NCBI GenBank assembly: GCA_015484575.1
Contig: WFND01000110.1
Location: 1-33,509, forward strand
Direction: 5' to 3'
DNA from: Helicobacteraceae bacterium
Lineage (GTDB): Bacteria; Campylobacterota; Campylobacteria; Campylobacterales; Sulfurimonadaceae
Length of the DNA: 33,509 nt
The stretch's first letter is position 1, and each line of letters opens with the position of its first letter. Of the stretch, positions 11,297 to 31,406 are shown piece by piece. Both the position numbers and the translations under genes were made by a program. The notes under the pieces were generated by a model, which saw nothing but the letters and a program-made list of their open reading frames with translations, did no database searches and was not told the DNA's origin.

Positions 11297-11863
11297 ATGA
11301 GAGAACTTGAAAAATTTAATAATCTTGTCCAAGCTTTAGAGACACTTCCGACAATAGGTAAAAAATCAGCAACACGTCTGGCTTATCATATGATTATGAG
11401 TGATAGCTTTAATGCTCTAAAGATAGCACATGCTATAGAAAATGCACTAGGTTATATCAAAAAATGTTCACAATGTGGCGGTATGAGTGAAGATGAATTA
11501 TGTTATATATGTTCAGATGAGAGACGTAATGAGTCAGTTTTGTGTATTGTTGAGAGTGCAAAAGATATTTTAATGTTTGAAGAGAATGGACTCTTTGATG
11601 GAAACTATTTTGTTTTGGAATCTTTAGATACTATAGATATTTCTCATCTTCGTTCACGCATAGGTAATGGAGTAAAAGAGATTGTATTTGCTATGACACC
11701 ATCTATAGCAAATGATGCTGTTATCTTATTTATAGAAGATAAACTTCAAGATTTTGATATACGTTTTTCTCGTATTGCACAAGGTGTTCCAACCGGTGTT
11801 AGTTTGGAAAATATAGATATATTGTCGCTCTCAAGAGCATTACAAGATAGAGTAAAGGTTTAA
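11297..11863 (+). CDS. recR: Recombination protein RecR
   Basis: LPTIGKKSATRLAYH; zinc motif CSQCGGMSEDELCYIC; Toprim domain. Start likely MRELEKF at 11297 rather than 11267. Confidence 0.93.
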   Translation: MRELEKFNNLVQALETLPTIGKKSATRLAYHMIMSDSFNALKIAHAIENALGYIKKCSQCGGMSEDELCYICSDERRNESVLCIVESAKDILMFEENGLFDGNYFVLESLDTIDISHLRSRIGNGVKEIVFAMTPSIANDAVILFIEDKLQDFDIRFSRIAQGVPTGVSLENIDILSLSRALQDRVKV

Positions 11864-11864
11864 A

Positions 11865-12113
11865 ATGAGAAGTTTAGTTCTCTCTTTGGCAGTTGTATTT
11901 AGTGGATGTATGGCAACTGTGCCGGTAGAAAAAAAAGATAAAAAGATAGATTTACGTTGTCAGCAAAAGCCAAATCCCGGTAGATGCAGAGCATATATGC
12001 CTAGGTACTATTTTGATAATAAAAGCTTTACATGTAAAGAGTTTATCTGGGGAGGTTGTGGAGGCGTAGTGCCTTTTGAGAGTATGAAAGAGTGTAAAGA
12101 GAGCTGTCTTTAA
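11865..12113 (+). CDS. Lipoprotein with Kunitz/BPTI-type serine protease inhibitor domain
   Basis: VVFSGC lipobox, then CQQKPNPGRCRAYMPRYYFDNKSFTCKEFIWGGCGGVVPFESMKECKESC: six Cys in Kunitz spacing (8-15-7-11-3) and the GGCGG signature. Confidence 0.88.
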   Translation: MRSLVLSLAVVFSGCMATVPVEKKDKKIDLRCQQKPNPGRCRAYMPRYYFDNKSFTCKEFIWGGCGGVVPFESMKECKESCL

Positions 12114-29488: not shown

Positions 29489-30096
29489 CAGTAGCACTAC
29501 CAAAGGGGCGTATAGCCGAAGACACTTTGGCAATTTTTGAGACAATCTTTGGAGAAAGTTTTAAATTTGACGATAGAAAACTTATCTTGGAGACTCCAAA
29601 TTTTAAGTTTCTTTTAGTACGTAATCAAGATGTTGCAACATACGTCTATCATCAAGCAGCAGATATAGGTGTTGTAGGACTAGATACTATTGAAGAGCAG
29701 GGTCTGGATGTTATACGTCTGTTAAATCTTCAGCGTGGAAGATGTCAAGTAGCTATTGGAATGAGAAAGGGTGAAAAACTTGATTTCTCCAAAGCAGAGA
29801 TAAAAGTTGCTACAAAGATGGTAAATATCACAAAACGATATTTTGCAGAGCGTGCTGTTTCTGCAGATATAATAAAGTTATACGGCTCTATAGAGTTAGC
29901 ACCTTTAGTCGGTCTTGCTGATATGATTGTAGATATTGTCGAGACAGGTACTACAATGAAACAAAATGGACTTGAGGTTGTAGAGCATATAATGGAATCT
30001 ACAACATATCTAATAGCAAATAAAAATAGTTTTTTTGAGAAAAAAGGCGAGGTATTAGATATTTATGAGAAGATAAATGAAGTAATCAGCACTTAG
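29482..30096 (+). CDS. hisG: ATP phosphoribosyltransferase, short (HisG_S) form
   Basis: LTVALPKGRIAEDT; ADIGVVGLDTIEE; LADMIVDIVETGTTMKQNGL. Confidence 0.94.
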   Translation: MLTVALPKGRIAEDTLAIFETIFGESFKFDDRKLILETPNFKFLLVRNQDVATYVYHQAADIGVVGLDTIEEQGLDVIRLLNLQRGRCQVAIGMRKGEKLDFSKAEIKVATKMVNITKRYFAERAVSADIIKLYGSIELAPLVGLADMIVDIVETGTTMKQNGLEVVEHIMESTTYLIANKNSFFEKKGEVLDIYEKINEVIST

Positions 30097-30101
30097 TGCT
30101 G
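30087..30101. terminator. Small bidirectional terminator-like hairpin
   Basis: CAGCAC-TTA-GTGCTG overlapping both convergent stop codons, followed by a T-rich run on the + strand (TCTTCTTTTTT). Confidence 0.45.
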
Positions 30102-31406
30102 AGTATCTTCTTTTTTATTTTCTTGTTCTTGCTCAATTTCTTGAGCTTTTTCTTCTTCTAAATTTTCTTCGTGATGCTCATGAGTCTCTTCGCTCTGCAA
30201 ATTTTCTTCGTGTTGTAAATTTTCTTCGTGTTGTTCTTCGTGTTGTAAATCTTCTTCGGTGTGTTCATGACTCTCTTCGTGATGTTGTTCGTTTTCATCA
30301 TGCTCATGACGACTCTCTTCATGTTCTATGTTCTCTTCGTGATGATGTTCATTTTCATCATGCTCAAGACTCTCTTCATGTTCTATGCTCTCTTCGTGTT
30401 CATCATTATGTTTGATTTGAACTTCTTCATAACTCAGCTCTCCATCATAGTTTTCAAGTTCACCATGCTTAATAGCTTCTAGGTAGTGCTTAGCAAGAGC
30501 TAGTTCATGATGACTTTCAGGATTTACCTCTGCCCCTACTGTTATGATATTTGTGTGCATAACTTTTTGCATTGTATTGTAAAGTATTACACCTGTTTGA
30601 ATTTTTTGGCGTGAAAGCTCACAGTAGTTATTGTAGTCATCACCTTCTACATGTAAGATACGTTTCATGACTGCACAGTACTCTTCAAGATATACATTTA
30701 AAGAGTTAACACTATTGTCTATGTTATGTGTATATTCGCATAGAGTCAATATTTTACTGTTTTGAATATCTTTTTCAGCTTTATGCTCTTGAGCTGCTTC
30801 AAGTGTCTTTTTAGCCGCATGAAGATTTCTGTTTGAGACTCCGTGATAACGTATCATTGCAAAAAGCAGTGCGATAATAAAACTGACACCTGCCATAGCA
30901 CCTAAACCGATTAGAGGCACTGGATTTGCCGGATATATGAGATTGGAATAATAGCTAAAAATAGGCTCATACATAGCAAAAGTCGGAACAGCATCTAAAT
31001 AGACCATGTGTCCTGATTTTGCCACACCTATTGCAATGAGTATAGCCATGGTTATGACAAAATATATAATCCCAATAATAAAAGATGAAAAACCGCCTGT
31101 ACTTACATGAGCAACGGTTAAAGGCTCTATTTTTGGGCTTTGGGCATAAAAATGCTCTTTTATATCCTCAAGATTTTCACCCGTATGGGTTATCTCTGCT
31201 CCTTCAAATGAACAGTTTTTAATCTCTTGGTATGTATCGTAAAAATCTTTTATACTTTTTTCTACGATCTGCTCTCTTAATTGCACATATTTTGCAATAT
31301 TTTCACATACTCTAGCGTCATTTTTATTTAGCTCATTATCTGCTTGATAAATTAACTCATGTGACTCTGATATGAGTGATATTGCTTCTTGATTATTTGC
31401 TTTCAT
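30093..31406 (-). CDS. Two-TM membrane protein with His/Glu-rich low-complexity C-terminal tail
   Basis: TM segments SSFIIGIIYFVITMAILIAIGV and VPLIGLGAMAGVSFIIALLFAMI; tail of HEES/HEEN/HDENEHHHEE repeats. Confidence 0.8.
   Translation of the reverse strand: MKANNQEAISLISESHELIYQADNELNKNDARVCENIAKYVQLREQIVEKSIKDFYDTYQEIKNCSFEGAEITHTGENLEDIKEHFYAQSPKIEPLTVAHVSTGGFSSFIIGIIYFVITMAILIAIGVAKSGHMVYLDAVPTFAMYEPIFSYYSNLIYPANPVPLIGLGAMAGVSFIIALLFAMIRYHGVSNRNLHAAKKTLEAAQEHKAEKDIQNSKILTLCEYTHNIDNSVNSLNVYLEEYCAVMKRILHVEGDDYNNYCELSRQKIQTGVILYNTMQKVMHTNIITVGAEVNPESHHELALAKHYLEAIKHGELENYDGELSYEEVQIKHNDEHEESIEHEESLEHDENEHHHEENIEHEESRHEHDENEQHHEESHEHTEEDLQHEEQHEENLQHEENLQSEETHEHHEENLEEEKAQEIEQEQENKKEDTQH
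30150..30415. repeat. Imperfect coding tandem repeats (HEEN/HEES modules)
   Basis: Repeated TCTTCGTG, TTTTCATCATGCTCA and CTCTTCATGTTCTATG; two copies of a roughly 60-bp unit at about 30282-30401. Confidence 0.75.

Follow-up and report, generated by a model that had tools for sequence, protein, structure and literature searches.

Why should a free-living-type bacterium encode a Kunitz domain, the textbook inhibitor and venom scaffold of animals, and did it obtain the gene from one? The question is raised by a small gene (82 codons plus stop; 11865..12113, + strand) on a stretch of Campylobacterota DNA of 33,509 nucleotides, referred to here in its entirety as 'the window'. The gene begins one base after the stop codon of recR (11297..11863, +), and a probable ribosome-binding site, AAAGG (11854..11858, +), inferred from the sequence, lies within the 3' end of recR, 6 nt upstream of the start codon. 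The product, MRSLVLSLAVVFSGC followed by MATVPVEKKDKKIDLRCQQKPNPGRCRAYMPRYYFDNKSFTCKEFIWGGCGGVVPFESMKECKESCL, is the only match to the Kunitz/BPTI profile, PF00014, in its genome, and a search of NCBIfam returned no family for it. GC content is 0.378 for the gene and 0.349 for the window, figures that are not diagnostic of transfer. Elsewhere in the window, positions 30093-31406 specify a predicted membrane protein with a long, repetitive, His/Glu-rich C-terminal tail.

The gene is native to its genome. An ortholog occurs in the second genome of the genus, that of a sister species (G001), likewise directly 3' of recR, and the linkage extends to three other genera of the family; the same order is found at loci L004, L012, L014, L015, L017, L018 and L019. 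G415, for example, a member of another genus, carries recR and then a canonical Kunitz lipoprotein with Arg at the P1 position. Between the window and the sister species, synonymous sites are saturated (dS) while dN is 0.146 for the Kunitz domain and 0.103 for recR, and for this reason we regard the Kunitz gene as being under purifying selection.

The protein begins as bacterial lipoproteins do. The preliminary description of this DNA had named a lipobox Cys, and the signal peptide and lipobox (MRSLVLSLAVVFSG-C15; 11865..11909, +) do fit the PROKAR_LIPOPROTEIN pattern, with VFSGC as the lipobox and Cys15 (codon 11907-11909) as the predicted site of lipidation; orthologs have FLSGC, LFSAC, ALTGC and similar sequences. 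A short linker (residues 16-30; 11910..11954, +), identified from the translation and modelled by AlphaFold with low confidence, joins the lipid anchor to the Kunitz domain. The '+2' rule of lipoprotein sorting is known from E. coli only. Here the +2 residue is Met, not Asp, and this, together with the predicted lipidation, suggests that the protein is anchored at the outer membrane. An inhibitor anchored in this way may serve to protect the envelope of its own cell.

What the anchor carries is a single Kunitz domain (11955..12107, +). PF00014 matches residues 31-81 with an E-value of 4.2e-14 and 52.9 bits, far above the gathering cut-off of 21, and the match spans positions 1-52 of the 53 in the profile. 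The six cysteines (32, 41, 57, 65, 77 and 81) are spaced 8-15-7-11-3, exactly the pattern claimed earlier for this reading frame, and a GGC secondary loop is present. Among PDB sequences it most resembles TFPI, SmCI (a carboxypeptidase inhibitor) and boophilin, with E-values from 2e-19 to 2.5e-15; the phmmer match to TFPI (E 2e-19) is well past chance. An AlphaFold2 model, based on an alignment of only four sequences, has a mean pLDDT of about 88-95 over the domain (residues 31-82) and low values in the leader. It comprises a beta hairpin (strands 45-51 and 56-62) and a C-terminal helix (74-81), and Foldseek places it within 1.2-1.6 Å rmsd of TFPI KD1, ShPI-1, APPI and BPTI, among matches many of which were solved in complex with trypsin-like proteases. 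Profile and model both bear out the Kunitz assignment, and the preliminary description was correct throughout, as far as sequence can test it. In seven related sequences Cys14 and Cys38 (BPTI numbering) are lost jointly, and because they disappear together in these degenerate relatives, their pairing in the canonical members is supported.

The reactive loop, P4 to P4', is G-R-C-R-A-Y-M-P (11979..12002, +; translation and alignment). P1, the residue after the second cysteine of the domain, is Arg42 (codon 11988-11990) and P1' is Ala43 (C41-R42-A43); the Arg had been noted before, and is compatible with trypsin-like targets. Alignment reveals that the determinants of an inhibitory loop have all been kept: Cys14, Gly12, Ala/Gly16, Gly36-Gly37 and Cys38. 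Counting raw copies irrespective of relatedness, P1 is Lys or Arg in 10 of 10 canonical copies from Campylobacterota; in the other two phyla this holds for only 6 of 24 distinct copies, and Glu, Asp, Met, Leu and Asn make up the rest. A basic P1 in an intact loop fits the prediction of a canonical inhibitor of trypsin-like proteases.

Starting from what is established—the identity of the domain and its predicted fold, the lipobox, the P1 residue and its conservation, the conserved locus and the purifying selection—we consider it probable, on the strength of sequence and model, that the protein is a lipid-anchored, single-domain Kunitz inhibitor of trypsin-like serine proteases, most likely foreign ones. 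It would leave the cytoplasm, receive its lipid at Cys15 and stay attached to one of the membranes, probably the outer; its three disulfides (expected at 5-55, 14-38 and 30-51) would form in the oxidizing environment of the envelope; and the loop would dock like a substrate, with Arg42 entering the S1 pocket of S1A proteases that have Asp189, in the canonical manner. The targets would most likely come from animals or neighbouring microbes, and the role would be an ecotin-like protection of envelope proteins.

Kunitz folds also have non-inhibitory roles, in channel blocking and in binding, and the protein might instead be an envelope lipoprotein that uses the fold as a stable scaffold for binding or for structure. 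Relatives at the very same locus lend this some substance. In the g73 and g78 genomes (L014, L015, L017, L018 and L019), the gene right after recR specifies a longer protein that ends in a Kunitz domain and, in most cases, has a recognizable lipobox. The Kunitz domains of this set (L013-L019, placed directly after recR wherever the contig extends far enough) are without Cys14 and Cys38, and have gained an N-terminal part of ~80 residues; they are apparently remodelled, non-inhibitory relatives. Acidic P1 residues (Asp or Glu), moreover, are common among the copies from Fidelibacterota. The window protein, in contrast, retains every canonical determinant, and with the basic P1 uniform among its canonical Campylobacterota counterparts, we judge a purely structural or binding role unlikely. 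At one of the remodelled loci (L018:1495-2178, - strand) a fourfold in-frame repeat of the EAMFQAKPHQNFNLGC type lies between recR and the start of the Kunitz lipoprotein.

If the protein is an inhibitor, as we favour, whose protease does it inhibit? The genome of the window, 92% complete, contains one detected trypsin-fold protease, an HtrA-like protein of 480 aa in which residue 189 is Ala, and HtrA is disfavoured as a target on that account. In the sister species no trypsin-fold protease was detected. Strong matches to S1A trypsins occur in 9 of the 228 genomes of the family and Kunitz genes in 12; the two coincide in one genome only, G415, against about 0.5 expected by chance, and the 228 genomes showed no linkage between Kunitz genes and those for true trypsins. 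Such trypsins (L045, L057 and L065-L076) are unusual in the family, beside the usual HtrA, and are confined to a few genomes. The preliminary description had listed 'self proteases' among the possible targets, and these observations disfavour them. An inhibitor of a protease of its own lineage, acting as envelope immunity or as a regulatory partner (e.g. of secreted trypsins or of HtrA), would find its best case in G415, which has a recR-linked Kunitz gene with P1 Arg as well as two Asp189 S1A trypsins (L045 and L057, with TAAHC and GDSGGP); and a self protease could have been missed in the incomplete genome of the window. Against this, neither that genome nor its sister has a detectable S1A trypsin, the HtrA-like protein has the wrong residue at 189, the overlap in G415 is close to chance, and the window gene shows no linkage to any protease gene, all of which makes a partner from the same lineage distinctly unlikely. 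We regard a foreign target as likelier than a self target because no Asp189 trypsin of its own was detected and because trypsins and Kunitz genes are not co-distributed, an argument from absence.

The domain was also described beforehand as chiefly metazoan and of possible horizontal origin. That reading misleads: the gene belongs to a patchy bacterial subfamily found in at least three phyla, between which movement is likely. The hallmark of this subfamily, GGCGGVVPFE in the window (12051..12080, +), combines a one-residue deletion, such that Cys38 and Cys51 (BPTI numbering) are separated by 11 residues and not 12, with the motif GG-x-[VIA]PF. Nearly all bacterial copies have both, apart from two divergent sequences from Bacteroidota and a single match that is truncated; in a small sample of animal Kunitz domains, the deletion and [VIA]PF were present in 0 of 10. 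In that alignment the BPTI row is the textbook sequence, and the other nine animal rows come from searches or were confirmed by them. The sequences nearest to the window domain are bacterial Kunitz lipoproteins (65-75% identity over the domain). In a tree, a branch (92/88) sets the animals apart and the window domain groups with bacterial L004 and L012 (98/90), the next nearest being L002 from Fidelibacterota and L003 from Bacteroidota. The 52 columns of the alignment are too few to root the tree or to settle the origin; of the four groupings open to AU testing none was rejected, including a clade of the window domain plus animals (p-AU 0.375). It is the shared deletion and the synteny that carry the argument. 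A recent transfer from animals is improbable because the subfamily has its own deletion and motif, and because its recR-adjacent locus is conserved across genera; a bacterial subfamily spanning at least three phyla appears the likelier source.

Eukaryotic contamination, or recent acquisition from an animal, would appeal to animals being the best-known source of Kunitz domains, and to the survival of the animal grouping in the AU test. The contig, however, is bacterial throughout, with the gene a single base behind recR; the same linkage recurs in several genera, whose genomes were assembled independently; and the lipobox, the nearest relatives and the hallmark missing from all 10 animal domains are those of bacteria. 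Contamination is ruled out by the recR synteny and the bacterial lipobox, and the two explanations together are highly implausible.

Within bacteria, the domain is sparsely scattered. PF00014 was matched in 7 of 397 genomes sampled from the window's phylum, in 6 of 396 from Bacteroidota (the phylum of Chryseosolibacter), in 17 of 149 from that of the Marinimicrobia/Fidelibacterota relative, and in none of 14 control genomes. A second Campylobacterota family has, in four genomes, a similar short Kunitz lipoprotein at a different locus, adjoining a conserved gene whose product resembles a membrane protein. This patchiness suggests loss together with transfer among bacteria, and the gene has likely moved between phyla; tblastn searches of plasmid, phage and viral contig collections found no Kunitz relative, and so no sign of carriage by mobile elements. 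At the recR locus itself, L004 and L018 have aroE next after the Kunitz gene, and in L080 and L092, from further genomes of the family, aroE adjoins recR with no Kunitz gene in between. One explanation is that the gene was acquired once, between recR and aroE, and was later lost or remodelled; independent insertions at the same site may be another. That canonical and remodelled forms make up one clade is neither supported nor rejected by the 52-residue tree (p-AU 0.453).

Other arrangements of the domain were also encountered. In L005:922-1848, L006:1408-2217 and L011:922-1830, a Kunitz domain with P1 Lys is fused to a domain that starts KPAIYLYP and has no Pfam match. In L038-L041, from the Marinimicrobia phylum, it forms the C-terminus of large proteins (one, L038, with a dockerin match), has P1 Asp, and contains two additional cysteines, close to positions 18 and 37 (BPTI numbering). 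Chryseosolibacter has two tandem Kunitz lipoprotein genes (L003:4887-5477), one with P1 Met and the other P1 Asp, a difference that suggests diversification of specificity. Broader still, and in our estimation possible though on the doubtful side, is a history in which a bacterial Kunitz subfamily of long standing diversified on its own and was passed from phylum to phylum; it would hold anchored trypsin inhibitors, forms with Asp or Glu at P1, and forms without the reactive-loop disulfide. Such a history would not run simply from animal to bacterium, and might even run the opposite way.

That Kunitz domains occur in bacteria is already known, from the reach of the Pfam model and from at least one experimental report, on Acinetobacter baumannii (PMC11511053); in the literature we searched, we found no account of a lipid-anchored subfamily, of the deletion signature, or of recR-locus relatives without Cys14-Cys38. 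A conserved, anchored subfamily with its own structural signature makes it tractable to ask what need free-living-type bacteria have of trypsin inhibitors, and at the recR locus one can follow how an inhibitor is remodelled and its reactive-loop disulfide lost. Bacterial genes of this kind should not be taken for contamination or for fresh transfers from animals.

How does the window protein compare with known systems? With BPTI, TFPI, APPI and ShPI-1 (PF00014; MEROPS I2) it shares the fold, the six cysteines, a canonical loop with a basic P1, and the GG-C38 secondary loop. It differs from animal domains in its shorter Cys38-Cys51 segment, in [VIA]PF where animals have xNxF, in Trp at position 35, in its lipoprotein anchor, and in being one isolated domain. 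Ecotin (MEROPS I11), an envelope inhibitor of foreign trypsin-fold proteases, resembles it in proposed role; its fold is unrelated, and it is a periplasmic dimer without a lipid anchor. Conkunitzin-S1 is a Kunitz protein that lacks Cys14-Cys38, the disulfide also lost from the g73 and g78 relatives and kept in the window protein; unlike conkunitzin-S1, these relatives are bacterial lipoproteins, mostly with a lipobox, and have an added N-terminal part. A bacterial precedent is the secreted, 303-aa F6W77 protein of A. baumannii, whose five Kunitz domains are termed KABP1-5 (PMC11511053). KABP1 is reported to inhibit two trypsin-like coagulation proteases, FXIa with a Ki of 12.4 nM and FXa with one of 7.1 nM, an activity linked to its P1 Arg; the kinetics are described as mixed rather than purely competitive (PMC11511053). 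The KABP1-5 protein differs from that of the window in having five domains and no described lipid anchor, and it is bacterial by a single record only. The KABP1 loop, GLCRGYFP, is nonetheless identical to GRCRAYMP at P4, P2, P1, P2' and P4', both with Arg at P1, a likeness that we count, by analogy, as support for the inhibitory role predicted for the window protein.
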